A stretch of DNA of 40,413 bases. Origin: Cyanobium sp. C1_MAG_00004. Its GTDB lineage: Bacteria > Cyanobacteriota > Cyanobacteriia > PCC-6307 > Cyanobiaceae. The stretch is taken from the NCBI GenBank assembly GCA_027486935.1, contig JAIXOF010000101.1, positions 1 to 40,413 on the forward strand, given 5' to 3'. Each line of letters begins with the position of its first letter. The first letter of the stretch is position 1. A program made the position numbers and the translations under genes. Positions 20,781 through 34,006 of the stretch are shown in pieces. The notes beneath the pieces are model-generated. The model worked only from the letters and a program-made list of their open reading frames with translations. It was not told where the DNA came from and ran no database searches.

Positions 20781-21062
20781 ATGAACCGCCTTGATCTGAT
20801 CGTCAGCGAACGGGAGCTCGAGCGTCTGTGCGCGGCTCTGACCAACGCCGGAGCCCCTGGCTACACCGTTTTGCGCCACGTCACCGGCCGCGGGCATGGC
20901 GGCACTGTCTCCGAGGGCATGGAGTTCAGCGGTGTGGGGGCCAATGCCCATGTGATCGTCTTCTGCGAAGCCGCCGCCCTGGGGGCGATCCGTGATGCGG
21001 TCAAACCTCTGCTCGCCTACTACGGGGGCGTGGGTTTCGTCTCGGACGCCCAGCTCCTGTAA
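20781..21062 (+). CDS. sbtB: PII-like regulator of bicarbonate transport SbtB
   Basis: A 93-residue ferredoxin-like-fold PII protein that binds SbtA as a trimer and adjusts its activity according to adenyl nucleotides (cAMP, AMP, ADP, ATP). It opens RLDLIVSERELERLCAALT, has a T-loop region TGRGHGGTVSEGMEFSGVGA, and ends LAYYGGVGFVSDAQLL. It lacks the short C-terminal extension with a cysteine pair (the redox or R-loop) found in Synechocystis SbtB. Such short forms are expected in Cyanobium. It is 4 bp downstream of sbtA and certainly co-transcribed. Confidence 0.9.
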   Translation: MNRLDLIVSERELERLCAALTNAGAPGYTVLRHVTGRGHGGTVSEGMEFSGVGANAHVIVFCEAAALGAIRDAVKPLLAYYGGVGFVSDAQLL

Positions 21063-21271
21063 GCACTGTTGCGCTTGACACCAAGCTGAAGCCCTGTCAG
21101 GGACTCCTGCGCAAGCATTGCCTAACGATTTGTGATCGACTGATCAGCCGTGCTTATCGAAGCGCCCCAGGAACGGTGATGGTCGCCGCGCCCCAAATGT
21201 CTTGACGGGGGGAATGGCGTCAGAGCAAGGTTGTTGGCGAACATTCCACCCCCCTCCTCCAGGAGCAGGTA
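21063..21271 (+). promoter_or_regulatory. Intergenic region between sbtB and csoS1A (leader of the cso operon)
   Basis: 209 bp. The first part has TTGCGC (21070-21075) pairing with GCGCAA (21110-21115) around an inner CCCT/AGGG stem, a weak terminator or processing hairpin after sbtAB. TGATC-GACT-GATCA (21133-21146) is a small palindrome. TGACG (21203-21207) pairs with CGTCA (21218-21222). No strong sigma70 -35/-10 pair is visible, although TTGACA occurs near 21075. AGGAG at 21261-21265 is the csoS1A ribosome-binding site. The main cso promoter probably lies here or upstream of sbtA. Confidence 0.4.
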
Positions 21272-21586
21272 ATGGCAAACGAAACCATGGGCATCGCCCT
21301 CGGCATGATCGAGACCCGCGGTCTGGTTCCCGCGATCGAAGCGGCTGACGCCATGACCAAGGCTGCCGAAGTGCGCCTGATCGCCCGCGAATTCGTCGGC
21401 GGTGGCTACGTCACCGTGATGGTCCGTGGCGAAACCGGTGCTGTCAACGCCGCTGTGCGTGCCGGCGCCGATGCATGCGAGCGCGTGGGCGATGGCCTGG
21501 TGGCTGCCCACATCATTGCTCGCCCCCACCGTGAAGTGGAACCTGCCCTGGCTGGCAGCGCCGGCTTCGTGGGTTCGAAGGACTGA
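21272..21586 (+). CDS. csoS1A: Major carboxysome shell protein CsoS1A (BMC-H)
   Basis: 104-residue single BMC domain that forms the hexamers tiling the facets of the shell. GIALGMIETRGLVPAIEAAD and REFVGGGYVTVMVRGETGAV are diagnostic; the Gly-rich FVGGGYV loop lines the hexamer pore. ADACERVGDGLVAAHIIARP ends the domain. An ideal AGGAG lies 6 nt before ATG 21272, consistent with very high expression. First gene of the operon, before rbcL. A second, N-terminally extended copy of the same domain is at 28319-28960. Confidence 0.95.
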   Translation: MANETMGIALGMIETRGLVPAIEAADAMTKAAEVRLIAREFVGGGYVTVMVRGETGAVNAAVRAGADACERVGDGLVAAHIIARPHREVEPALAGSAGFVGSKD

Positions 21587-21603
21587 GCTCGGTTGATCAA
21601 CGT

Positions 21604-21625
21604 CTCAGCCAGGACCTGAGCTGAG
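21604..21625 (+). promoter_or_regulatory. Stem-loop between csoS1A and rbcL
   Basis: CTCAGC (21604-21609) pairs with GCTGAG (21620-21625), with a 10-nt loop, 18 bp after the csoS1A stop. There is no T-tract, so a role in transcript processing or stability is more likely than termination. GGAG at about 21664-21667 is the rbcL ribosome-binding site. Confidence 0.35.
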
Positions 21626-21674
21626 CTGTTGGTTCTGATCTCATCCCTTCACCCGACCCAACCGGAGAACCTCC

Positions 21675-23087
21675 ATGAGCAAGAAGTACGACGCCGGGGT
21701 CAAGGAGTACCGCGACACGTATTGGACTCCTGATTACGTCCCCCTCGACACCGACCTGTTGGCCTGCTTCAAGTGCACCGGCCAGGAAGGTGTGCCCAAG
21801 GAAGAAGTGGCTGCCGCTGTTGCCGCTGAATCCTCGACCGGTACCTGGTCCACCGTGTGGTCCGAGCTCCTCACCGATCTCGATTTCTACAAGGGCCGTG
21901 CCTACCGCATCGAAGACGTTCCTGGTGACAAGGAATCCTTCTATGCCTTCATCGCTTACCCCCTCGACCTGTTCGAAGAAGGTTCGGTGACCAACGTGCT
22001 GACCTCCCTGGTCGGCAACGTGTTCGGCTTCAAGGCCCTGCGCCACCTGCGTCTGGAAGACATCCGCTTCCCGATGGCCTTCATCAAGACCTGCATGGGT
22101 CCCCCGAACGGCATCCAGGTCGAGCGCGACCGGATGAACAAGTACGGCCGTCCCCTGCTGGGTTGCACCATCAAGCCGAAGCTCGGCCTGAGCGGTAAGA
22201 ACTATGGCCGTGTGGTGTATGAGTGCCTGCGTGGCGGTCTCGACTTCACCAAAGACGACGAAAACATCAACTCCCAGCCCTTCCAGCGCTGGCAGAACCG
22301 TTTCGAGTTCGTTGCTGAAGCCGTTCGCTCCGCCCAGGAAGAAACCGGCGAGAAGAAGGGTCACTACCTGAACTGCACCGCCGCCACTCCTGAGGAGATG
22401 TACGAGCGGGCCGAGTTCGCCAAGGAACTCGGGCAGCCGATCATCATGCACGACTACATCACCGGTGGCTTCACAGCCAACACCGGTCTGGCGAAGTGGT
22501 GCCGCAAGAACGGCATGCTGCTGCACATTCACCGCGCCATGCACGCGGTGATCGACCGTCACCCCAAGCACGGCATTCACTTCCGTGTGCTGGCCAAGTG
22601 CCTGCGTCTCTCGGGTGGCGACCAGCTGCACACGGGTACCGTGGTCGGCAAACTCGAAGGTGACCGTCAGTCGACCCTCGGTTACATCGACCAGCTGCGC
22701 GAATCGTTCGTTCCTGAAGATCGCAGCCGCGGCAACTTCTTCGATCAGGACTGGGGTTCCATGGGCGGCGTGTTCGCCGTGGCCTCCGGTGGTATTCACG
22801 TCTGGCACATGCCGGCCCTGGTCGCCATTTTTGGTGACGACTCGGTGCTGCAGTTCGGTGGTGGTACCCACGGTCACCCCTGGGGTTCAGCTGCTGGTGC
22901 GGCTGCCAACCGCGTGGCTCTCGAAGCCTGCGTCAAGGCACGCAATGCCGGCCGTGAAATCGAGCGCGAAGGCCGCGACATCCTGACGGAAGCAGCCAAG
23001 CACAGCCCTGAGCTGGCAATCGCCCTCGAGACCTGGAAGGAGATCAAGTTCGAGTTCGACACCGTCGACAAGCTCGACGTTCAGTGA
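21675..23087 (+). CDS. rbcL: RuBisCO large subunit, form IA
   Basis: Catalytic subunit of ribulose-bisphosphate carboxylase, fixing CO2 inside the carboxysome. 470 residues, as usual for form [13 protein letters not shown] holds the carbamylated lysine and the two Mg2+ ligands. [13 protein letters not shown] carries the active-site lysine. [19 protein letters not shown] (loop 6 precursor region) and [14 protein letters not shown] are also present. The N-terminus [19 protein letters not shown] is of proteobacterial/alpha-cyanobacterial type. It follows csoS1A and precedes rbcS by 137 bp, the standard cso order. Confidence 0.98.
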
Positions 23088-23166
23088 TCATCAGCTGCAT
23101 GGTCTGCCCGAACCATCTGTTCGCAGGTGGTCCTCTGACAGATCTGATGCGGCCGAGTTGTGTCAT

Positions 23167-23195
23167 GGCCTGAGTCTCCACCCGAGGTTCAGGCC
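23167..23195 (+). promoter_or_regulatory. Stem-loop between rbcL and rbcS
   Basis: GGCCTGA (23167-23173) and TCAGGCC (23189-23195) pair perfectly around a 15-nt loop, in the 137-bp spacer and 29 bp before the rbcS start. The spacing could influence rbcS translation or protect the rbcL 3' end. There is no T-run. Confidence 0.35.
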
Positions 23196-23224
23196 CAACC
23201 ATTCCATTCACCCCAAGGTTTCCC

Positions 23225-23566
23225 ATGCCCTTCAAGAGCACCGTGGGTGACTACCAAACAGTCGCCACCCTGGAGACATTCGGCTTCCTCCCGCCGATGA
23301 CCCAGGACGAGATCTACGACCAGATCGCCTACATCATTGCCCAGGGTTGGAGCCCGCTCGTTGAGCACGTCCACCCCAGCCGCTCCATGGCCACCTATTG
23401 GTCCTATTGGAAGCTGCCCTTCTTCGGTGAGAAGGACCTGAGCGTGATCGTCAATGAGCTCGAGGCTTGCCATCGCGCTTACCCCGATCACCATGTGCGT
23501 CTGGTGGGCTACGACGCCTACACCCAGAGCCAGGGTTCTTGCTTTGTTGTGTTCGAGGGCCGCTGA
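23225..23566 (+). CDS. rbcS: RuBisCO small subunit, form IA
   Basis: 113-residue small subunit that caps the L8 core to form L8S8. It opens PFKSTVGDYQTVATLETFGF, then the conserved MTQDEIYDQIAYIIAQGWSP and YWSYWKLPFF. C-terminal DHHVRLVGYDAYTQSQGSCFVVFEG completes the domain. Length and lack of the long N-terminal insertion of other forms fit alpha-cyanobacterial CbbS. It starts at ATG 23225. Confidence 0.97.
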   Translation: MPFKSTVGDYQTVATLETFGFLPPMTQDEIYDQIAYIIAQGWSPLVEHVHPSRSMATYWSYWKLPFFGEKDLSVIVNELEACHRAYPDHHVRLVGYDAYTQSQGSCFVVFEGR

Positions 23567-23599
23567 TTCTTCAGCGTTTCTGAGAACTCTTGGTCTTGC

Positions 23600-23620
23600 G
23601 GTCCCGACGGCGTCGGGACC
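23600..23620 (+). promoter_or_regulatory. First of two perfect hairpins between rbcS and csoS2
   Basis: GGTCCCGAC (23600-23608), a GGC loop, then GTCGGGACC (23612-23620): a perfect 9-bp, GC-rich stem with a 3-nt loop. It is followed by CATGGCTTTGTT, with no continuous T-run. It lies 34 bp after the rbcS stop. It may act as a leaky terminator or as a 3'-end stabiliser of rbcLS message. Confidence 0.65.
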
Positions 23621-23636
23621 CATGGCTTTGTTCATG

Positions 23637-23663
23637 GCAGCACGGGCAATTGCGCCGTGCTGC
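23637..23663 (+). promoter_or_regulatory. Second perfect hairpin between rbcS and csoS2
   Basis: GCAGCACGG (23637-23645) and CCGTGCTGC (23655-23663) pair perfectly. The 9-nt loop itself contains the palindrome GCAATTGC. The hairpin ends 32 bp before csoS2 ATG 23696. No clear ribosome-binding site follows, so this structure could also tune csoS2 translation. Confidence 0.6.
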
Positions 23664-23695
23664 AAATCCTTCGCACATTCATTTGACGGGCGGAC

Positions 23696-26104
23696 ATGGC
23701 CAGTACATCCAGCCGGGAAGCAGCGCTCGAGCGGCGCAAGGCCCTCACCACGGGTGGCAAAAAGGCCGCCAGTCGGTTCACCTCTGCCCCCAATCGGGTG
23801 CGTTCGGCCAACGATGCCCGCCCCAGTCGCACCGTTGTTGAACCAGCGGTGATGACCACCCCCCCTGCGGCTTCCGCCGCTGCCGTGCCGGCAGCCCCCG
23901 CAGCCCGGGCCCGCTCTGCATCGCTGAGTGCTCCGTCCTCGCCTCGACAGGTGAGCGCCCACAAGGTGAGCAATCCCAGCCGTGACCTGGTGCTGGCCCG
24001 CCGCGAAGCCCTGAGTCGCGGCGGAAAGCGCGCCAGCACCTCCCGCGATCGCACCCGTACCGATCTCGCCCGTACGACTGCTCAAGTCGCGCAGCAGGCC
24101 GCTGCAGCTCCTGCCGAGGCTCCTGCCAAGCCTTGCCGTTGTCAGGATCAGGGGTTCAATAGCCGCGCCAATGGCCGCGATGTTGCCCCCCGGCTGAGTC
24201 TTGGTACACCCGCCGACACCGCCAACGCTTCAAGCCGCCGCAGCCAGCAACGCAAGGGGACGGCCCAGCACAACTCCAGCCGTGCCCTGGTCCTGGCTCG
24301 TCGTGAAGCCATGTCGAAGCGCGGCAAGTCAGCCAGCACGGGCAGCAAAAGCGGTGCCGCTGCCGTTGTGCGCCAGATCAATCCCGATTTGAACGGCCGC
24401 GAATTGGCCCAGAAGGTCCGCGAGCTCAAGAGCCGCAGTGGCTCTGCAGGCTCCAGCCGTAGTGGTGGTACCCGCCCCACCGGTCCGAATCGTCACGGCG
24501 CCAAGCAGAGTGCCGCCGCAGATGCCCATTGGAAGGTCGGTGTCAGCCAGACGGCGGCTGGCCAGTTGGTGACCGGAACCCAGGCCAACCGCTCGGCCAA
24601 GACCACTGGCAATGAAGCTGCCACCTGCCGAGCCATCACCGGCACCGAATACCTGGGTGCCGAAGTGTTCCAGTCGTTCTGCAACACCACACCTGCCGCA
24701 ACCCAGCCGGCCAAGGTGCGTGTCACGGCCACCAGCCATGGCAACCGCGTTACCGGCAACGAAGTCGGTCGCTCTGAGAAGGTAACCGGCGACGAACCCG
24801 GTACCTGCAAATCGATCACTGGCACCGAGTACGTCTCGGCCAACCAGTCGGCCGCCTACTGCGGCACTACGGCCCAGACACCGCGCAAGGTGGGTCAGAG
24901 CCAGACCCTGGGTGGTCAGCCTGTCTCGGGTGTAATGGTCGGCCGTTCCAGCAAGGTCACTGGCGATGAGGCCGGCTCGGGCCTGCAGCTCACTGGGGAC
25001 CAATATCTGGGCTCCGAACCTCCGACCGCCGGTCGCGCCCCCAGCAAGGTCGCCAGTCAGCAGACCCTGCGGGGCACCGGCGTGACCGGTACCGCCGTTG
25101 GACGGAGCGAACGTGTGACCGGGGATGAACCCGGCAGCTGCCGCAACATCACGGGCGACGAATACATCGGCTTTCAGCAGTACAACCAGTTCTGCGGCTC
25201 CCAGCCGGCTGCGGAAGCCCCCAAGGTCGGCTTCAGCGTCACCAATCGTTCCCTGATTGTGAGCGGAACCCGCACGGGCCGCTCTGAGAAGGTCACCGGT
25301 GATGAACCAGGCACCTGCAAGGTGGTCACCGGCACCCCTTACGCCGGGCTCGAGCAGGCCAGCAACTACTGCTCGACTGGGTCTGTGCGCAGCATTCGTG
25401 AGCGCACACCCGTTCGCGGCTCGAATCGCCTGAGTGGCATTCAACCGGGCATCGGCGGCAGCCTCACCGGTGCTGACCGTGGAGCCTGCGAGGACATCAC
25501 CGGTACCCCCTATGTGGGTGCCGATCAGATGATCGAGGCCTGCGGTGCAGCCAGCAGCGAGGACCCTGACTTTCCCCAGGTTCTGGAGCAGGCTCCCTGG
25601 CAGCGCTTCAGTGTCCAGTCGCCCGCCCGCGTCGCCCACACAGCCCGGGCCCGTGGTGGATCGGTGACCGGCACCTCCTACGAACAGGGCAACCGGATTA
25701 CTGGCCCTTTTGATCTGGCCGGTGACAAGGTCACCGGCACCGAACAGTTCCGTTTTGACCGGCGCGGCGCCCAGCTGTCACGCGGTCCGATCGAGCTGGC
25801 ACCCGTTCACCAAGTTGCGGTTGAAGACCAGCGCCCCACTTCCCGTGTCACCGGCGAGGGTATCTCGGCCGGACTCCGTATCACTGGCGATGACTGGGAT
25901 CGCGGTGAGCGCGTCACCGGCACCGAGGGAGCTTCGGCCCGTCGCCGCAACCCAACCCGCACCGGCCCCATGGCGGCCATGGCGATGCGCACCAACAACA
26001 AGCGCAACGACGATGTGCCTGAACCCGTGAGCCGGGTCACCGGTTCCAGCGGCAACACCCTGGCCGGTTCGCTGATCACGGTCTCGGGCGGAGCCCGCGG
26101 TTGA
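23696..26104 (+). CDS. csoS2: Carboxysome scaffold protein CsoS2
   Basis: Intrinsically disordered linker that gathers RuBisCO and attaches it to the shell. 802 residues in three regions. The N-terminal region has three RuBisCO-binding repeats of the form SR-x-LVLARREALS: near 6-24 (SREAALERRKALT), 95-113 and 195-213. The middle region (about 280-620) has six repeats with VTG, GRSEKVTGDEPGTC and ITGTEY signatures and paired cysteines; the third lacks them. The C-terminal region (620-802) has further VTG motifs and ends with the shell-anchoring peptide GSLITVSGGARG. One continuous frame is seen. The ribosome-binding site is poor, and two hairpins precede the gene. Confidence 0.95.
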   Translation: MASTSSREAALERRKALTTGGKKAASRFTSAPNRVRSANDARPSRTVVEPAVMTTPPAASAAAVPAAPAARARSASLSAPSSPRQVSAHKVSNPSRDLVLARREALSRGGKRASTSRDRTRTDLARTTAQVAQQAAAAPAEAPAKPCRCQDQGFNSRANGRDVAPRLSLGTPADTANASSRRSQQRKGTAQHNSSRALVLARREAMSKRGKSASTGSKSGAAAVVRQINPDLNGRELAQKVRELKSRSGSAGSSRSGGTRPTGPNRHGAKQSAAADAHWKVGVSQTAAGQLVTGTQANRSAKTTGNEAATCRAITGTEYLGAEVFQSFCNTTPAATQPAKVRVTATSHGNRVTGNEVGRSEKVTGDEPGTCKSITGTEYVSANQSAAYCGTTAQTPRKVGQSQTLGGQPVSGVMVGRSSKVTGDEAGSGLQLTGDQYLGSEPPTAGRAPSKVASQQTLRGTGVTGTAVGRSERVTGDEPGSCRNITGDEYIGFQQYNQFCGSQPAAEAPKVGFSVTNRSLIVSGTRTGRSEKVTGDEPGTCKVVTGTPYAGLEQASNYCSTGSVRSIRERTPVRGSNRLSGIQPGIGGSLTGADRGACEDITGTPYVGADQMIEACGAASSEDPDFPQVLEQAPWQRFSVQSPARVAHTARARGGSVTGTSYEQGNRITGPFDLAGDKVTGTEQFRFDRRGAQLSRGPIELAPVHQVAVEDQRPTSRVTGEGISAGLRITGDDWDRGERVTGTEGASARRRNPTRTGPMAAMAMRTNNKRNDDVPEPVSRVTGSSGNTLAGSLITVSGGARG

Positions 26105-26111
26105 TCGACTG

Positions 26112-27704
26112 ATGCGCCGTCCCCTGGCCACGACCAACCCATCCCTGGCGCCGACGGCACCCCGCCGTCGGCCTGGCGTGCCGTCTGCGCCTGACCAGAT
26201 TGCTCAGGTCCTGAGCGAACCTGCTCAGCCGGCTGCGGCCCTTGGTCGCGTGCGGCCGATGCGTGCCCCGCGCCCCAGCCCTCCTGGAGTTGCTGGGCGC
26301 TTGCATCCATTGACTGATGCAAGGGCCAATGCAGCCCTGCAGCAGTACGAGAGTCAGGTCAAGGACAGCTTCGACAAGATCGTGCCTGTGCTCAAGCGGA
26401 TTGCCGCTCTGCAGCATGAATCGACCTTCATCGAGCAGGCCCAACAGCTGGCGCGTCAGGAGTTCGGCTTTACCCTTCCCCTCCCCATTCTGGAGACCGC
26501 TTGGGTCAGTCAACTGGACATGCGAACTCTGTTCGCCTGGTGCGTGTTCGAGACCTATGAGCACACCAGTGCAGGGTTCTTCGAGCAGGACCCCCTGGGC
26601 GGCCAGCCCGGCAGTGATGCGGCCAAAACCTTCAACCTGTTTCTGCTGTCCTGCGGTTTCCACCTGCTCGACATCACCCCCTGCGCCGACGGCCGTTTGG
26701 CCCATGCGATCGCCTACGCCCTGCGACTGCCCTTTGCTTCGGTGCGCCGACGCTCCCATGCCGGGGCCCTGTTTGACGTTGAAAACACCGTCAACCGTTG
26801 GGTCAAGACCGAGCACCGTCGCTATCGCGAGGGGGTTCCCAACAGTGCCCATGACGACACCCGCTATTTGAAGGTCGTCCTCTATCACTTCAGCTCAAAA
26901 GACCCCAGTCACGAGGGCTGTGCCGCCCATGGCAGTGATGACGCTCTCGCCGCCAGCAGTGGCCTGGCCCGCCTGAACGATTTCCAGCAGGCCGTCGAGA
27001 ACAGCTTTTGCTGTGGGGCCTCGGTTGATCTCCTGCTTCTGGGGATCGACACCGACACCGATGCCATTCGTGTTCACGTTCCGGGAATGGATGGCAGCAC
27101 CAACCTTCAACGTTGGTTGGATGCCACCGATGTGTATGCCGAGACTGCCGGCATGACGGTCGAGCAGGCAAGGGCGGCGGTTGAGCGCATGGTCCAAGAC
27201 GCGGCTGCCGCCACACCCGATCCCGGCATGGTTCGTCTGATCAGCCGACTGTTGGAGAACAACATGTCGCAGCTCGATTATGTGCGCCAGTTTCATCAAG
27301 GCGCTTACAGCGATGCGGGCCATGCCGAGCGTTTCATCGGTGTCGGGATCGGCTTTAAAGAGGTTCACCTGCGCAACCTCACCTACTTCGCTTACATGGA
27401 CACGGTTGAAGAAGGGGCTCCTGATCTCGATGTTGGTGTCAAGATTTTCAAGGGACTCAATGTCTCCCGCGGCTTGCCTGTGCCAGTGGTTGTTCGTTTC
27501 GACTACAACGGTCAGGTTCCAGGCGCCCGTGAACGGGCGGTCGAGCGAGCCCAGCGTGTGCAGGCTGCGATTGAGCAGCGTTACAGCGACCTGGTGCAGC
27601 AGGGCCTGATGCATGCCCTGCTGACCGTGCGGGATCAGGAACGCCACTGCCCTGCGGAAGCGGTAGGTTCCACCATCAACTTCGCGAGCACTGGAGGGCA
27701 CTGA
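26112..27704 (+). CDS. csoS3: Carboxysomal beta-type carbonic anhydrase CsoSCA (CsoS3)
   Basis: Shell-associated carbonic anhydrase that turns HCO3- into CO2 within the carboxysome. 530 residues. The N-terminal 60 or so residues are Pro/Arg-rich and disordered; in other systems this tail tethers the enzyme to RuBisCO. The catalytic domain contains PCADGR with the C-x-D-x-R motif at C191, D193 and R195. The other zinc ligands fit H259 in LYHFSS and C270 in HEGCAAHG, with the 11-residue spacing of the Halothiobacillus enzyme. A defunct second half follows, as in the family. It starts at ATG 26112, 7 bp after csoS2. Confidence 0.95.
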   Translation: MRRPLATTNPSLAPTAPRRRPGVPSAPDQIAQVLSEPAQPAAALGRVRPMRAPRPSPPGVAGRLHPLTDARANAALQQYESQVKDSFDKIVPVLKRIAALQHESTFIEQAQQLARQEFGFTLPLPILETAWVSQLDMRTLFAWCVFETYEHTSAGFFEQDPLGGQPGSDAAKTFNLFLLSCGFHLLDITPCADGRLAHAIAYALRLPFASVRRRSHAGALFDVENTVNRWVKTEHRRYREGVPNSAHDDTRYLKVVLYHFSSKDPSHEGCAAHGSDDALAASSGLARLNDFQQAVENSFCCGASVDLLLLGIDTDTDAIRVHVPGMDGSTNLQRWLDATDVYAETAGMTVEQARAAVERMVQDAAAATPDPGMVRLISRLLENNMSQLDYVRQFHQGAYSDAGHAERFIGVGIGFKEVHLRNLTYFAYMDTVEEGAPDLDVGVKIFKGLNVSRGLPVPVVVRFDYNGQVPGARERAVERAQRVQAAIEQRYSDLVQQGLMHALLTVRDQERHCPAEAVGSTINFASTGGH

Positions 27705-27705
27705 G

Positions 27706-28014
27706 ATGTTGATCTGCAAGGTCGTCAAACCCCTGGTCTCCACCAATCGCATTCCCGATTTCGAACACAAGCACCTGCTGGTCGTCCTCGACGGCAGCAC
27801 CCAAAAGGTTGCTGTCGATGCGGTCGGTTGCATACCCGGCGACTGGGTGATCTGCGTGGGCAGTTCTGCCGCCCGCGAAGCCGCCGGTAGCAAGTCCTAT
27901 CCCAGTGACCTGACGATCGTCGGGATCATTGATCACTGGGATCCTGAGGCTGCCAAACCCACTGCACCACAAGCCGGATCGGTTGTCGCGCCGTCCCCAG
28001 GGGGTGCCAGGTAA
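27706..28014 (+). CDS. csoS4A: Carboxysome vertex protein CsoS4A (BMC-P pentamer)
   Basis: 102-residue pentameric EutN/CcmL-type protein that closes the twelve vertices of the icosahedral shell. It opens LICKVVKPLVSTNRIPDFEH and continues VAVDAVGCIPGDWVICVGSS and LTIVGIIDHW, the family core. A C-terminal Pro/Ala-rich tail of about 20 residues follows. It starts one base after the csoS3 TGA, and its stop shares a base with the csoS4B start. Confidence 0.95.
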   Translation: MLICKVVKPLVSTNRIPDFEHKHLLVVLDGSTQKVAVDAVGCIPGDWVICVGSSAAREAAGSKSYPSDLTIVGIIDHWDPEAAKPTAPQAGSVVAPSPGGAR

Positions 28015-28265
28015 TGGAGATCATGCAAGTCACCGGTTCCCTGGTGTGCACCCAACGTGTCGGTGGTCTCAAGCACTGGAATCTGCGGGTACTCCGTACG
28101 GCCAAAGGCAAGCTCAACGTGGCTGTCGACCCCGTTGGCGCCTCCCCCGGCAACTGGGTCTTCACCGCCAGCGGCTCAGCAGCACGCTTTGCCTGTGGCG
28201 ATCCCGATACGTACACCGATCTCACGATCGGCGGAATCATCGATTTCTGGGAGCCGGATGGTTAA
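28014..28265 (+). CDS. csoS4B: Carboxysome vertex protein CsoS4B (BMC-P pentamer)
   Basis: 83-residue second pentamer protein, paralogous to CsoS4A. MQVTGSLVCTQRVGGLKHWN and VAVDPVGASPGNWVFTASGS are diagnostic, ending LTIGGIIDFW. The first ATG is at 28014; an internal ATG at 28023 (MQVTG) is also possible. It overlaps the csoS4A stop by one base, so translation is likely coupled, keeping the two minor vertex proteins balanced. Confidence 0.94.
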   Translation: MEIMQVTGSLVCTQRVGGLKHWNLRVLRTAKGKLNVAVDPVGASPGNWVFTASGSAARFACGDPDTYTDLTIGGIIDFWEPDG

Positions 28266-28318
28266 GGGCGCATCCCGCGTTCTGAACGTTTCTGCTCCCT
28301 CGCTTCCGTCCTACCGCC

Positions 28319-28960
28319 ATGGCCACACCTTCCAAGCCCTCTGCCGCGTCCCATGGCCCGGCCGCAGCGGCCGCCGCTGGTGCCACCCCTGCAAAAGTCT
28401 CTGCAGTTCCTGCAGACGCCAAGGCCAGCACGGCCCAACCCCAGGCGCCGGCCGTCAAGGCCGTCACTCCCGAGGTGTTGCCCGCTGCCACCAGCACAAC
28501 CCGTGCCACCAGCCGCGCCTCTGCCTCAAGGGCCACATCCAGCCGTAGCACCACTCGCAGCAGCAGCGCCCGCAGCAGCGGCGTCCCCAACAGCAGCAGT
28601 GGCCGTGGCGGCCGTGGCATCACACCTCCCTCGAATTCTCCCTCCAGCACTCCGATGGCTTCCAACATTCAGGGCGTCGCCCTCGGCATGATCGAAACCC
28701 GTGGCCTGGTGCCGGCGATCGAGGCGGCTGACGCCATGACCAAGGCGGCCGAGGTGACCATGGTTGCCCGCGAGTTCGTCGGTGGCGGTTATGTGACCGT
28801 GTTGGTGCGCGGCGAAACCGGTGCCGTCAACGCCGCCGTGCGTGCCGGTGCCGATGCCTGCGAGCGCGTTGGCGACGGCCTGGTGGCGGCCCACATCATT
28901 GCGCGCCCCCACAGCGAAGTCGAGTCTGTGCTGGGCAGCGCTGGTAACCGACGCGCTTGA
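28319..28960 (+). CDS. csoS1E: CsoS1E-type shell protein: BMC-H domain with a long disordered N-terminus
   Basis: 213 residues. The C-terminal part (about 115-205) is a BMC-H domain nearly identical to CsoS1A: GMIETRGLVPAIEAADAMTK is shared exactly, with substitutions such as RLI to TMV. The first 110 residues are Ala/Pro-rich, then Ser/Thr/Arg-rich (ATSRASASRATSSRSTTRSS), with no predicted structure. An internal ATG at 28655 would give a plain BMC-H protein. Neither start has an obvious Shine-Dalgarno, so two products are possible. It would enter shell hexamers and expose a cationic tail to the lumen or cytoplasm. The E name follows the extended paralogues known in marine Synechococcus. Confidence 0.82.
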   Translation: MATPSKPSAASHGPAAAAAAGATPAKVSAVPADAKASTAQPQAPAVKAVTPEVLPAATSTTRATSRASASRATSSRSTTRSSSARSSGVPNSSSGRGGRGITPPSNSPSSTPMASNIQGVALGMIETRGLVPAIEAADAMTKAAEVTMVAREFVGGGYVTVLVRGETGAVNAAVRAGADACERVGDGLVAAHIIARPHSEVESVLGSAGNRRA

Positions 28961-28965
28961 TCATC

Positions 28966-29454
28966 ATGGGCGCCGTTCATCCGCGCGTCCTCGGCATCCT
29001 GGGCCGCGCCCTGAGCCTTGAGCTCACTGCGGTCCAGCAGTACATGACCCAGGCGTCCCTGTTGGAGCTTTGGGGTGATCACGATTCCGCAGCGCGCTTT
29101 CGCCGCGAAACCGTCGAAGAGCTGCGCCACGCCGAAACGTTGGTGCAGCGCATGCTGGCTCTGGGTGCGGCACCCGCTGCCTCCCAGCTGCGGCCTGTCA
29201 CCCTCGCGGCCGATCTGGGTGGTCTGTTACGTCAGAATCTGGCACTCGAGCAGGATCTGATCCACCTCTATGCCGAGGCTGTTCGCTTCACCCTGCTGAT
29301 CGGGGACCAACACTCCTGTGACCTGTTCACAGCCCTCCTCGACGACGAGGAGCATCACCTGCGACAGCTGAGGGACTGGCTGGCTGACCGCCCCCGCGAG
29401 TCAGGCTTTTCCGGCAACCCCGACAGGGACCCTCACGCCCGTGCCACCTTCTAA
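28966..29454 (+). CDS. Ferritin-like / bacterioferritin-type protein of the cso operon
   Basis: 162 residues, an all-helical ferritin-like four-helix protein. Diiron ligands are suggested by E19 in SLELTAVQQY, E52 and H55 in EELRH, a Glu in NLALEQDLIHLY, and the DDEEHH cluster near the C-terminus. Bacterioferritin-like genes are common companions of cso operons; their role is unproven, perhaps iron or oxidant handling. A TTG at 28957 would overlap the csoS1E stop; ATG 28966 is preferred. Followed after 23 bp by ndhF4. Confidence 0.8.
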   Translation: MGAVHPRVLGILGRALSLELTAVQQYMTQASLLELWGDHDSAARFRRETVEELRHAETLVQRMLALGAAPAASQLRPVTLAADLGGLLRQNLALEQDLIHLYAEAVRFTLLIGDQHSCDLFTALLDDEEHHLRQLRDWLADRPRESGFSGNPDRDPHARATF

Positions 29455-29477
29455 CCCCGTCGATCGCCGCCCCGCTG

Positions 29478-31349
29478 GTGCAGTCCTTGAGTGAAGCCCT
29501 GCCGTTACCGCTGCAATTCACCTGGCTGATCCCGATCTACGGCTTCAGCGGCATGCTCCTGTCGCTGCCCTGGGCGACCGGGTGGATCAAGCGCAACGGC
29601 CCCCGGCCTGCTGCCTATCTCAATCTGCTGGTCACCCTGTTGGCTGTCCTGCACGGCAGCCTGGTCATTCGTGATGTTCTCGCGATCGGTCCCCAGCACC
29701 TTGACTTCGTCTGGTTCAATGCCGCCGACCTGACCCTGCGCCTTGGGTTTGACCTTTCATTGACCAACCTGGCCGCACTCGAGCTGGTCACCACCATGAG
29801 CCTGGTCTGCCAGGTCTACGCCCTGGGTTACCTGGACAAGGAGTGGTCCCTGGCCCGTTTCTACGCGTTGGTGGGGTTCTTTGAAGGGGCCATGAGTGGG
29901 GTGGTGCTGAGCAGCAATCTCTTCCTGAGTTATTTCCTGCTGGAGATGCTCACCCTCTCCACCTATCTGCTGGTCGGGTTCTGGTATGCCCAACCCCTGG
30001 TCGTCACGGCCGCCAGGGATGCGTTTCTGACCAAGCGGGTCGGTGATGTGCTGCTGCTCATGGGTGTGGTCGCCCTGGCTGCCTGGACCGGTTCACTCGA
30101 GTACAACGATCTGTACGACTGGGCCTCTGAGAATGCATCCACGGGCGCGATCGCTCCGCTGGCCGGCACCCTGCTGGGCCTGGGTCTGATTGCCGGTCCC
30201 ATCGGCAAATGCGCCCAGTTCCCCATGCACCTCTGGCTGGATGAGGCGATGGAGGGACCCAACCCGGCCTCGATCCTGCGCAATTCGGTGGTGGTGACCT
30301 GCGGGGCAGTCGTGCTGATGAAATTGATGCCGGTTGTGGCACCCCTTTCCCCTCTGGCGACCCAGGTGCTGCTGGTGGTCGGCAGCATCAGTGCCATCGG
30401 CGGCGCCCTGGTTGCCCTGGCCCAGGTCGACCTGAAACGGGCTTTCAGCTACTCGACCACGTCCTACCTGGGCCTGGTGTTCATCGCCATCGCCCTGCAG
30501 CGTCCCGGCCTGGCTCTTCTGCTGCTGTTGGCCCACGGCCTGGCCCGCGCCCTGCAGTTCATGGGCGTGGGCAGCATCATTGCGACCACGAATTGCCAGG
30601 ACCTCAGCGAACTGGGGGGCATCGGCACCCGCATGCCAGCAACCCTGCTGGCGTTTGTGGTTGGTGGGGCCGGCGTGGTGGGGCTGTTCCCCCTGGGCAC
30701 GTTCTGGTGCTTCGCTCTGATGCTCAATACCCTGCTGCCCGCCTCGCCGCTGTTAGCAACGGTCTTTCTGCTGACCAATGCGCTCACCGCCGCCAATGTC
30801 GTGCGAGTGGTCCGCTCGGTGTTTGGGGGAAGCCCCACTCCCAAATGCAGGCGCACCCCTGAATGCAACTGGTTGATGGCGCTGCCGATGGTCAGCCTGA
30901 CTGTCCTGGTGCTGCTGTTGCCCTGGATCATGCAACGGTTCGATCCGGTGCCGGGCATCGGTTCGTTCCCCCTGCCCGTTGCCCTGGGTGTGGCCGGCAG
31001 CGCTGCCGCTGGCGTGGTCGTCGGCAGCCTGCTGCCCCAGGATCAGTTCTGGTCACGGGCCACCACCCCCTGGCTGCGATTGCTGCAGGACCTCCTGGCC
31101 TACGACTTCTACACACCCGAGATCTACCGCCGCACGATCGTTGCGCTGGTGGCCTCCTTAGCGCGCATCACCCTGTGGGTGGACCGGATCCTGATCAAGG
31201 GATTGGTCGATGGGCTCGGGAGACTGTCCCTTGTCACCGCCGAGGGGCTCAAACTCACGGTCAGTGGCCAACTGCAGAGCTACGTGTTGACCGTGATCGC
31301 AGCCCTGCTGTTGCTGTTGGGGAGCCTCCAATGGCTGAGGGGAGCCTGA
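29478..31349 (+). CDS. ndhF4: NAD(P)H-quinone oxidoreductase subunit F4
   Basis: Proton-pumping membrane subunit (NuoL-like) of the NDH-1_4 CO2-uptake complex. 623 residues, paralogous to ndhF3 at 15539-17416: compare LLEMLTLSTYLLVGFWY and GPIGKCAQFPMHLWLDEAME. It starts at GTG 29478; no ATG lies near. Assigned F4 because its partner CO2-hydration gene is the shorter, CupB-like type without a cupS. It continues the carboxysome operon on the same strand, so shell and low-affinity CO2 uptake are probably co-expressed. Confidence 0.87.
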   Translation: MQSLSEALPLPLQFTWLIPIYGFSGMLLSLPWATGWIKRNGPRPAAYLNLLVTLLAVLHGSLVIRDVLAIGPQHLDFVWFNAADLTLRLGFDLSLTNLAALELVTTMSLVCQVYALGYLDKEWSLARFYALVGFFEGAMSGVVLSSNLFLSYFLLEMLTLSTYLLVGFWYAQPLVVTAARDAFLTKRVGDVLLLMGVVALAAWTGSLEYNDLYDWASENASTGAIAPLAGTLLGLGLIAGPIGKCAQFPMHLWLDEAMEGPNPASILRNSVVVTCGAVVLMKLMPVVAPLSPLATQVLLVVGSISAIGGALVALAQVDLKRAFSYSTTSYLGLVFIAIALQRPGLALLLLLAHGLARALQFMGVGSIIATTNCQDLSELGGIGTRMPATLLAFVVGGAGVVGLFPLGTFWCFALMLNTLLPASPLLATVFLLTNALTAANVVRVVRSVFGGSPTPKCRRTPECNWLMALPMVSLTVLVLLLPWIMQRFDPVPGIGSFPLPVALGVAGSAAAGVVVGSLLPQDQFWSRATTPWLRLLQDLLAYDFYTPEIYRRTIVALVASLARITLWVDRILIKGLVDGLGRLSLVTAEGLKLTVSGQLQSYVLTVIAALLLLLGSLQWLRGA

Positions 31350-31353
31350 ACTG

Positions 31354-32862
31354 ATGCTGCTCTCCTCCCTGCTGTTGATCCCGTTTGTCGGGTCGTTGGT
31401 CGTGCTGCTGTGGCCGGGTGGGCCCAGCCCCCAGCGCCTGCGGCTCGTAACGATTCTGATCCTGGTAGCCCAGCTGCTGGTCAGCCTCGGGGCGATTGCG
31501 CTGTTTGATCCAACGGCCCCCGGCATGCAATTGCAGGAACTGCATGCCTGGGTACCGGGCATCGGCCTGGATTACGCCCTGGGCATCGATGGGCTCTCAC
31601 TGCCGCTGGTGCTGATCAACGCTGCCTTGACCCTGGTTTCGGCGGTGATCACCCGCGACATCGACAAGCGCCCGCGCATCTATTTCGCCATGCTGCTGCT
31701 GATCAGCGGTGCCGTGAATGGTGCATTTCTGGCCGAGAACCTGTTGCTCTTCTTCCTGTTCTATGAGCTTGAACTGATCCCGCTGTGGCTGCTGATCTCG
31801 GTTTGGGGTGGGGCCAACCGGGCCTATGCCGCCACCAAATTTCTGATCTTCACTGCCGTGTCGGGCATGTTGATCCTTGGCGCGTTTCTGGGGCTATCCC
31901 TGCTGACCGGCACGGTCGATTTCAGCCTGACCCCTGTGCTCTCTGATCGGTTGACGATCGGGGGGCAGCTGCTGCTGCTGATCCCACTGCTGATCGGATT
32001 TGGGATCAAGATTCCGTTGGTTCCGTTGCACAATTGGTTGCCCGATGCCCACACCCAGGCGTCGACGCCGTTGTCGGTGCTGCTGGCTGGCGTGTTGCTG
32101 AAACTCGGAACCTATGGATTGCTGCGCTTTGGCCTGCAGCTGTTTCCCGAGGCCTGGGCCCGCATTGCCCCTGCCCTGGCGATCTGGGCCGCCTTTTCGG
32201 TGCTGTATGGCTCTTTGGCGGCGATCGGCCAGACCGACATGAAGCGCATGGTGGCCTTCAGCTCGGTCGGCCACATGGGTTACGTGCTGTTGGCTGCCGC
32301 TGCGGGTACGCCGGTGGCTCTGCTGGGGGCTGTCTTCCAGATGGTCAGCCATGGCCTGATCTCAGCCCTGCTATTCCTGCTGGTGGGGATTGTCTATCGC
32401 AAGACCGGAACCAGGGATCTGCAGGTGCTCCATGGCCTGCTCAACCCTGAAAAGGGGTTGCCGCTGACAGGCTCGCTGATGATCGTCGCGGTGATGGCCA
32501 GCGCCGGCCTGCCGGGCATGGCCGGCTTCATTTCAGAGTTCCTGGTGTTTCGCGGCAGCATCGGCGTGTTTCCCCTGGCCACCCTGTTGTCAATGGTCGG
32601 TTCTGGCCTGACAGCGGTGTACTTTTTGCTGCTGGTCAACCGGGCCTTCTTTGGACGTTTGGCGATCACTCCCCCCAGCGGCGACGCCCAGGTGGATGGG
32701 CGTCTCGACGTACGCCTGTCACCCGTTGCCCTGCGGGAGACATTGCCGGCGATTGCCCTGGCTGCAGGGGTGGTCCTGCTGGGATTGTGGCCCGCCAGCC
32801 TCGGCCATCTCAGCGAGGCGGCCACCACGGCCATGGGCCTGACCATCGGGGGGGTTGCCTGA
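31354..32862 (+). CDS. ndhD4: NAD(P)H-quinone oxidoreductase subunit D4
   Basis: NuoM/MrpD-like membrane subunit of NDH-1_4, 502 residues, about fourteen membrane segments. LDYALGIDGLSLPLVLINA, LFYELELIPLWLLISVWGG and KIPLVPLHNWLPDAHTQAST carry the conserved Glu, Lys and His. The HxxLPDAH form is closer to ordinary NdhD than the ndhD3 copy, whose equivalent reads LHGWQPLTYSQA. It lies 4 bp after ndhF4 and abuts cupB. Confidence 0.88.
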   Translation: MLLSSLLLIPFVGSLVVLLWPGGPSPQRLRLVTILILVAQLLVSLGAIALFDPTAPGMQLQELHAWVPGIGLDYALGIDGLSLPLVLINAALTLVSAVITRDIDKRPRIYFAMLLLISGAVNGAFLAENLLLFFLFYELELIPLWLLISVWGGANRAYAATKFLIFTAVSGMLILGAFLGLSLLTGTVDFSLTPVLSDRLTIGGQLLLLIPLLIGFGIKIPLVPLHNWLPDAHTQASTPLSVLLAGVLLKLGTYGLLRFGLQLFPEAWARIAPALAIWAAFSVLYGSLAAIGQTDMKRMVAFSSVGHMGYVLLAAAAGTPVALLGAVFQMVSHGLISALLFLLVGIVYRKTGTRDLQVLHGLLNPEKGLPLTGSLMIVAVMASAGLPGMAGFISEFLVFRGSIGVFPLATLLSMVGSGLTAVYFLLLVNRAFFGRLAITPPSGDAQVDGRLDVRLSPVALRETLPAIALAAGVVLLGLWPASLGHLSEAATTAMGLTIGGVA

Positions 32863-32863
32863 G

Positions 32864-34006
32864 ATGCCGGTTATTTCAGCCGATCTGGTTCATGTCGAGC
32901 CCTCCCTCAGCTGTGATGAGCTGCAGCGACGCCTGCTGAGCGGCCAGACCCTGCTGGCCGAGAGCAGCGACCATCTGCTCGAGGTCGTCGGGGTGCTCGA
33001 AAGTTATGGGGAGGTGCTCGATGCCTACAGCCTGAACCTGATCTACCAGGCGGAGCATCAGTTTCTCAATCCCGTCCCGGTCTTCAAGTACCTCGATGGT
33101 GACCTGAGCCCAGCCAAGATCTGGCGCCATCTCAACCACGACCGCATCAACTTCGAGTACGCCGAGTACTGCCAGAAGGCCATGTTCTGGCATGGCACCG
33201 GTGGACTGGATGCTTACCTCGACGGTGAAGCCTTTGCCTCGAATTGCCAGGCCATCATCGCCGCCAAACGCCGGCGGGATCCACTCCTGGCCCTGCTGAA
33301 TCCCCTCTTTCCTGGTTTCCTGCCTGAGCTGATTCGCTCAGCTGCCACCACCCACGCCCTCGGTCAGTTCTGGCGGGTGATGAGCGATCTCTTTCTTGAT
33401 CTGGCCCGGGCCGAGCGCAGCGGACAGGTCAGCACGATTGCCCATGTGGTCGACTTCATCAAGGAGGGTCTGGTGGCTGCAGCCGCCAATCCGATTACCT
33501 ATGGGGTCACGATTGCCGGGCAGCACCATTGGGTCCTGCCGCCGGAAGCGGGCCTGACCTTTCTGGTCGATGTGGCGGTCCCCTACGTGGAAGCGGTGTT
33601 CCTGCGGGGCATGCCGTTTCTTGGCACCGTCAGCTTCAACGCCCAGGCCCAGCAGATCTCGCCCGATCAGGCCCAATTTGCCTATGGGGCCCTTTATGCC
33701 GATCCCCTGCCCAGCATGGGGGCCGGTATCCCCCCCAGTCTGCTGCTGCAGGACATGTACCGCCACCTGCCCGAGCCGTTGCACCAGTGGTACCGCCAGC
33801 GCACCCGTGGCGAAGGCGACGTGCGCGTGAAGATCTGCATGAGCTTCCAGAAGTCGATGTTCTGTGTCACCAACGCCGCCATCAACGGCACCATGCCCCA
33901 TCCGCTCTCGACCACAGACCCGCAGCAGCAGGCCGCCAACGCGGCCTATGCCCTGGCCTGGGCCGACCGCCTGGCGGCAGGTCGCACCGATTGTCTGGCG
34001 GCGTAA
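32864..34006 (+). CDS. cupB: CO2 hydration protein CupB (ChpX)
   Basis: CO2-hydrating subunit of NDH-1_4, 380 residues, paralogous to CupA here but about 55 residues shorter. Shared blocks include LNLIYQAEHQFLNPVPVFKY, RHLNHDRINFEYAEYCQKAM and KICMSFQKSMFCVTNAAI. ATG 32864 is one base after the ndhD4 stop; a TTG at 32855 would overlap it and is less likely. Length and absence of a fasciclin partner support CupB. The CupA/CupB split would need a tree. Confidence 0.86.
   Translation: MPVISADLVHVEPSLSCDELQRRLLSGQTLLAESSDHLLEVVGVLESYGEVLDAYSLNLIYQAEHQFLNPVPVFKYLDGDLSPAKIWRHLNHDRINFEYAEYCQKAMFWHGTGGLDAYLDGEAFASNCQAIIAAKRRRDPLLALLNPLFPGFLPELIRSAATTHALGQFWRVMSDLFLDLARAERSGQVSTIAHVVDFIKEGLVAAAANPITYGVTIAGQHHWVLPPEAGLTFLVDVAVPYVEAVFLRGMPFLGTVSFNAQAQQISPDQAQFAYGALYADPLPSMGAGIPPSLLLQDMYRHLPEPLHQWYRQRTRGEGDVRVKICMSFQKSMFCVTNAAINGTMPHPLSTTDPQQQAANAAYALAWADRLAAGRTDCLAA

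Follow-up and report, generated by a model that had tools for sequence, protein, structure and literature searches.

In the carboxysome operon of a Cyanobium genome, the spacer between rbcS and csoS2 carries a GC-rich hairpin (H1) that has been kept, through matched base changes, across nearly all of the Synechococcus, Cyanobium, and Prochlorococcus relatives examined. H1 is almost certainly a real RNA structure maintained by selection. Its main role is most probably (roughly 0.6) that of an intercistronic 3′-end element, which would stabilize or segment the rbcLS message and so keep rbcLS mRNA above csoS2 mRNA.

Positions given here refer to the window, i.e. the whole 40,413-nt stretch of DNA that was analysed, and the features described lie on its + strand. 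The operon is of the Cyanobiaceae alpha-carboxysome type, with csoS1, rbcL, rbcS, csoS2, csoSCA, csoS4A, and csoS4B, and the rbcS–csoS2 spacer measures 129 nt, between the rbcS stop codon (23564–23566) and the csoS2 ATG at 23696. A sequence-only reading of this DNA had named the flanking genes as rbcS and csoS2, and these names were borne out. The ORF for rbcL (21675–23087), which lies upstream on the same message, matched the NCBIfam model PRK04208 (Rubisco large subunit) above cut-off, and the ORF for the downstream gene, csoS2 (23696–26104), matched NF050159 above cut-off with 1234 bits; this match covers residues 1–802 and thereby supports the ATG at 23696. The rbcS ORF (23225–23566), the upstream gene that would be protected in the proposed model, had no NCBIfam match at the threshold used, but 194 of the 201 genomes of the family have an orthologue of it. 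A cyanobacterial-type rbcS, 97% identical to that of the window, was also found in a metagenome-assembled genome titled Betaproteobacteria (REEB420; locus L037), for which reason the contig or record label is probably wrong. No sigma-70 promoter for csoS2 was found in a scan of positions 21000–34000, which is weak evidence because cyanobacterial promoters may escape such a scan.

The same reading had reported two perfect hairpins, at 23600–23620 (H1) and 23637–23663 (H2), and both could be confirmed, with fully complementary arms. For H1, the arms 23600–23609 and 23611–23620 give 10 bp on paper, or 9 bp with a usable 3-nt loop, GGTCCCGAC-GGC-GTCGGGACC; the hairpin begins at the 34th nt after the rbcS stop and lies 75 nt upstream of the csoS2 ATG. 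H2, GCAGCACGG-GCAATTGCG-CCGTGCTGC, has 9-bp arms (23637–23645 and 23655–23663) and ends 32 nt before the csoS2 ATG, and its loop, GCAATTGCG, does contain a palindrome, GCAATTGC, as had been described. Between the two lies a single-stranded stretch, CATGGCTTTGTTCATG (23621–23636), with a weak T3-G-T2 run at the site where relatives have a G-poor, T-enriched tail. A third, small hairpin (H0, CGCTGA-TTCT-TCAGCG, 23561–23576) spans the rbcS stop codon in both the MFE and the centroid fold. H0, H1, and H2 each form with a probability of at least 0.98 in the fold ensemble (pairing probabilities of 0.98, 1.00, and 0.99, respectively). The fold of the whole spacer has z = −3.79, with none of 200 shuffles equally stable, and 17 of 2000 spacer shuffles (∼1%) produced a perfect hairpin that equalled H1 or H2 (−16.8 kcal/mol each) in stability.

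For comparison across relatives, 80 loci from named genomes were combined with loci from other genera of the family, to give 122 distinct rbcS–csoS2 spacers. The core stem was defined as nine pairs, and a G-U mismatch counted in the same way as an A-C one. This core could be found in 113 of the 122 spacers, against 8.8 in shuffled spacers; several of the nine spacers that fell short carry other or imperfect hairpins. Within the family, nearly all of the 40 further loci taken from other genera and other sublineages had an orthologue of H1. Among the relatives, H1 starts a median of 20 nt past the rbcS stop (interquartile range 16–22), with a loop of 3–10 nt. Its sequence drifts while pairing is kept, from GGUCCCGG/CCGGGACC in Cyanobium types to GAGCCCUGA/UCAGGGCUC and AUAGCCUCGA/UCGAGGCUAU in other sublineages. 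Most Cyanobium-type loci have the stem GGTCCCGG/CCGGGACC, and stems of GAGCCCTGA/TCAGGGCTC and ATAGCCTCGA/TCGAGGCTAT were seen in what appear to be the marine-Synechococcus and Prochlorococcus types, respectively, both labels being inferred.

Compensatory changes, which the sequence-only reading had proposed to look for in the stems, were abundant in H1. When 53 diverse H1 segments were aligned, all 11 of the tested pairs showed two-sided changes, with 131 two-sided-change cells compared with 43 after shuffling. The covariation score was 0.612, against 0.265 for shuffled alignments, and was reached in none of 500 shuffles; sliding the alignment by 1–3 columns lowered it to 0.08–0.19. RNAalifold independently predicted the same helix, with two-sided changes in 9 of its 9 pairs. 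Rows of the covariation alignment (A1) were picked for a strong hairpin close to the site, so that the percentage paired comes out too high; the same co-changes were observed in an unselected MAFFT alignment of all close loci, e.g. G-C in 48 and A-U in 19 at one pair. Related sequences are not independent, and for this reason counts are given here rather than a probability.

The strand on which the pairing matters could be read from the wobbles. G-U outnumbered A-C by 47 to 7 in H1 (39 to 7 when counted by loci, 28 to 7 by distinct stems), whereas shuffles gave 7.6 of each. A function in the DNA, or in RNA from the opposite strand, would make A-C as common as G-U; the dominance of G-U therefore indicates that it is the coding-strand RNA that is constrained. 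Both the covariation and the strand-specific wobbles show H1 acting as an RNA under selection for pairing.

Hairpins of this strength are characteristic of the rbcS–csoS2 boundary. Stems of −13 kcal/mol or better were found in 90% of rbcS–csoS2 spacers, compared with 29% of rbcL–rbcS and 0% of csoS1–rbcL spacers. In the window itself, the rbcL–rbcS spacer holds a hairpin at 23167–23195, GGCCTGAGTCTC/GAGGTTCAGGCC, of −17.3 kcal/mol when G-U pairs are allowed. As a background control, 400-kb samples of two relatives were examined, using crude gene calls, for hairpins behind genes with a same-direction neighbour. H1 was the most stable of 79 such hairpins in a close relative with an identical RbcS and the second of 70 in a more distant one (G100), where the hairpin 3′ of rbcL came third. 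High expression of rbcS is well established, and within the operon H1 is, by position and stability rank, a stable stem-loop that follows soon after the stop of this gene.

A covariance model of H1 scored 23.4 bits at the window site, the next site in the window scoring 13.9. Genome-wide, the model also matched GC-rich intrinsic terminators, so its matches are not all one kind of thing. Rfam gave no match at the gathering threshold in the window and none at E ≤ 1 in eight relatives. The pattern GGTCCCGNNNCGGGACC had the wrong spacing and was unable to match the window, and GGTCCCG-N3-11-CGGGACC was used in its place. This exact motif occurs just twice in the genome and is present in 3 of 59 others, and a repeat or REP-like genome-wide origin of H1 was rejected on these counts. 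The second copy in the same genome, GGTCCCGGCATGGACCGGGACC (locus L088, 1501–1522; G000:C95:15353–15374), sits 10 nt behind an ORF that is apparently rpsF (ribosomal protein S6), and the start codon of the following ORF may lie in its loop.

The other two hairpins of the spacer have narrower histories. In three lineages of the same genus, the place of H2 folds into a GCAGC…GCTGC hairpin with a changed and imperfect upper stem, from which we take H2 to be kept at genus level; the conservation anticipated for both stems thus extends to H2 within the genus but not beyond it, its sequence being genus-specific and not orthologous across lineages. Other sublineages have an unrelated second hairpin 25–29 nt before csoS2, e.g. 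GGAGGGGC-AAGT-GCCCTTCC; this hairpin, too, changes in sequence without losing its pairing. H2 is an accessory, turning-over part of the spacer. For H0, in which the untranslated region repeats the complement of the last rbcS coding bases, 43 of the 122 spacers have an exact 5-nt counterpart (CGCTG/CAGCG), where 1.9 would be expected, a count that ignores relatedness.

In the model that we favour, transcription would run through the spacer, and the rbcLS portion of the cso message would have its 3′ end marked by H1. A nuclease would cut within the single-stranded, pyrimidine-rich stretch that follows H1, or farther on, with some release of polymerase there, to leave an rbcLS mRNA ending 3′ in H1. 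The GC-rich stem would then block 3′-to-5′ exonucleases such as PNPase, so that rbcLS persists while the csoS2–csoSCA–csoS4 part is rarer or shorter-lived, and one operon would yield much more Rubisco than scaffold. In this genus, H2 might act as an additional block, or shield the csoS2 part at its 5′ end. We infer the cleavage, the protection, and the resulting message ratio. The genome encodes RNase E (452.7 bits) and PNPase (934.1 bits); Rho gave no match above the family cut-off in this genome, and the weak matches of 21–22 bits probably come from other ATPases. In alpha-carboxysomes, Rubisco is in large excess over CsoS2, with Rubisco:CsoSCA:CsoS2A:CsoS2B at 13:1:2:2.5 in those of Halothiobacillus neapolitanus (PMC12918739). 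Taken together, the contrast with true terminators described below, the tail profile behind H1, the presence of RNase E and PNPase with no detected Rho, and the known Rubisco excess make a 3′-end stabilizer or segmenter the most likely role. An RNase-E-resistant 3′ end, one of three functions suggested in the sequence-only reading, is the best supported of the three. Against the model, translation rate alone could set the Rubisco:CsoS2 protein ratio. A further H1-like hairpin, GGTGGTCCCTGCGGGGACCACC, with a pyrimidine tail, was observed at 1260–1307 of locus L213 (G010), between a putative urtA and a permease gene; it lies at the same kind of high-to-low expression boundary as H1 and was counted in favour of the model.

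The most serious alternative, to which we give appreciably less weight, is leaky intrinsic termination at H1, alone or together with H2: most polymerases would stop past rbcS and a minority reach csoS2. A strong GC stem is followed in relatives by a G-poor, T-enriched stretch; across 106 relatives, G falls to 1–8% at positions +4 to +9 behind H1 and T reaches 56–60% at +6 to +8. Three loci (L070, L078, and L127) have a run of about 5–7 T directly behind the stem that reads as an intrinsic terminator, and since Rho was not detected, intrinsic signals must do the terminating. However, the T enrichment in relatives is displaced by about 5 nt from the stem, and the window tail behind H1, CATGGCTTTGTT, gave no match in a terminator scan. 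Textbook terminators in this and related genomes instead carry A-tracts and T-runs that adjoin the stem, e.g. AAAGCCCCTGCTTCAGCAGGGGCTTTTTATTT. A GC stem with an immediate U-run, the form of an intrinsic terminator, is seen in L127 and L078 but not in H1 of the window. The leaky double terminator that had been suggested is therefore less plausible in this lineage, where there is no T-run, no scan match, and little likeness to terminators of the same genome, and it may apply to a few relatives. Weak termination at H1 in some lineages is possible, as a rival to 3′-end stabilization or as a contributor to it.

A more ambitious reading, which we consider unlikely at present, makes H1 an ancestral RNA element that acts in cis and is dedicated to the Cyanobiaceae cso operon, where it would set the Rubisco-to-CsoS2 ratio and perhaps adjust it to growth conditions. 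Such regulation might run through an RNA-binding protein or through sRNAs such as Yfr10. If this were true, H1 would determine how many carboxysomes marine and freshwater picocyanobacteria have, or how large these are. In a pull-down with Yfr10 from Prochlorococcus MED4, csoS1 and csoS2 were enriched, and other operon genes, including rbcLS, were not (PMC6778093). This hints at separate csoS2 and rbcLS RNAs but is suggestive only; because the study reports enriched peaks, it is not counted here as proof of separate RNAs.

Translation was considered as well, in that the hairpins, and H2 above all, might control csoS2 by structuring its leader, as the sequence-only reading had also put forward. 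We judge this improbable. It is true that csoS2 has no clear ribosome-binding site, as had been noted, and no Shine–Dalgarno-like sequence precedes it. H2 or an analogous hairpin stands ∼25–32 nt before the ATG in several lineages, and the csoS2 ATG is partly paired in the fold, with in silico breakage of H2 changing the pairing of the start codon, although only in part. The conserved hairpin, however, is H1, which lies 75 nt from that ATG in the window and which can be broken in silico with leader accessibility unchanged (0.41 versus 0.41 over positions −15 to −1), and H2 is not orthologous across lineages. The idea of translation control thus draws little support from H1. At 23688–23698, GGGCGGAC stands directly before the ATG, and it is conserved at the nucleotide level in most relatives. 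Of the 122 relatives, 97 have GGGCGG somewhere in the 12 nt that precede the ATG, and GGGCGGACATGG was found at csoS2 only in 800 kb of two related genomes. GGGCGGAC may be a separate, unusual translation-initiation signal.

Two remaining explanations are very improbable. A DNA palindrome bound by a regulator, e.g. an operator for the LysR-type CbbR or for CcmR, would fit a near-perfect inverted repeat, but neither a fixed half-site spacing nor a fixed sequence was found in relatives, where the spacing varies from 3 to 10 nt, the sequence is wholly replaced between sublineages with pairing kept, and the wobbles are G-U on one strand. Chance GC-rich inverted repeats with no function are to be expected at some rate in a high-GC genome, about 1% of spacer shuffles yielding one such stem, an explanation that is partly possible for H2 and is refuted for H1 by its family-wide conservation and covariation.

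A large share of the carbon fixed in the ocean is owed to the alpha-carboxysome operons of picocyanobacteria. A covarying hairpin, present throughout the family and placed precisely where the Rubisco genes give way to the scaffold gene, makes it directly testable how a single operon can supply Rubisco in many copies and scaffold in few. It would also matter to anyone transferring the operon to plants or Escherichia coli, a step in which the native spacers may be left out or designed anew.

For the cso transcripts of H. neapolitanus, Cai et al. in 2008 reportedly mentioned that secondary-structure elements might be why protein levels are unequal. That operon is of the same type as the one in the window, its spacer being gammaproteobacterial, and we know of no covariation analysis of it. 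Two proteobacterial spacers, from Thiodictyon and Nitrobacter, hold hairpins, two cases that prove nothing on homology. The cbbS–csoS2 spacer of Thiodictyon plasmid pTs417 (locus L219, 2554–2779) contains an inverted repeat of ∼21 bp, GGAGGTCGAGGCTTTAGCCGG…CCGGCTAAAGCCTCGACCTCC, perhaps a mobile palindrome. In the open-paper literature, no description of such a hairpin in cyanobacterial cso operons was found; the kind of control is already known from puf, malEFG, and cip-cel, and it is the site for which we found no earlier description in open papers. The puf operon of Rhodobacter has, like the cso operon, a hairpin between abundant and less abundant messages of one photosynthesis operon (Klug et al. 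1987, cited in PMC11354728); its effect was shown by deletion, and H1 is unrelated to it in sequence and lies in a carboxysome operon. The E. coli malE–malF intercistronic REP element is similarly a palindrome behind a highly expressed first gene with differential message stability, but REP is a dispersed repeat, unlike the H1 motif with its two genomic copies. It appears under malEFG in PMC4423207. In the cip-cel (cellulosome) operon of Clostridium cellulolyticum, a case of selective RNA processing and stabilization, the nucleases, organism, and sequence are other than those considered here, and processing sites and message ratios have been measured. Stem-loop stability there correlates with message ratio, and subunit ratios are set by the stem-loops (PMC4423207). 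As with H1, the cip-cel stem-loops stand 3′ of highly expressed genes in an operon that encodes a complex, mostly lack a U-run, and have orthologues across species (PMC4423207).
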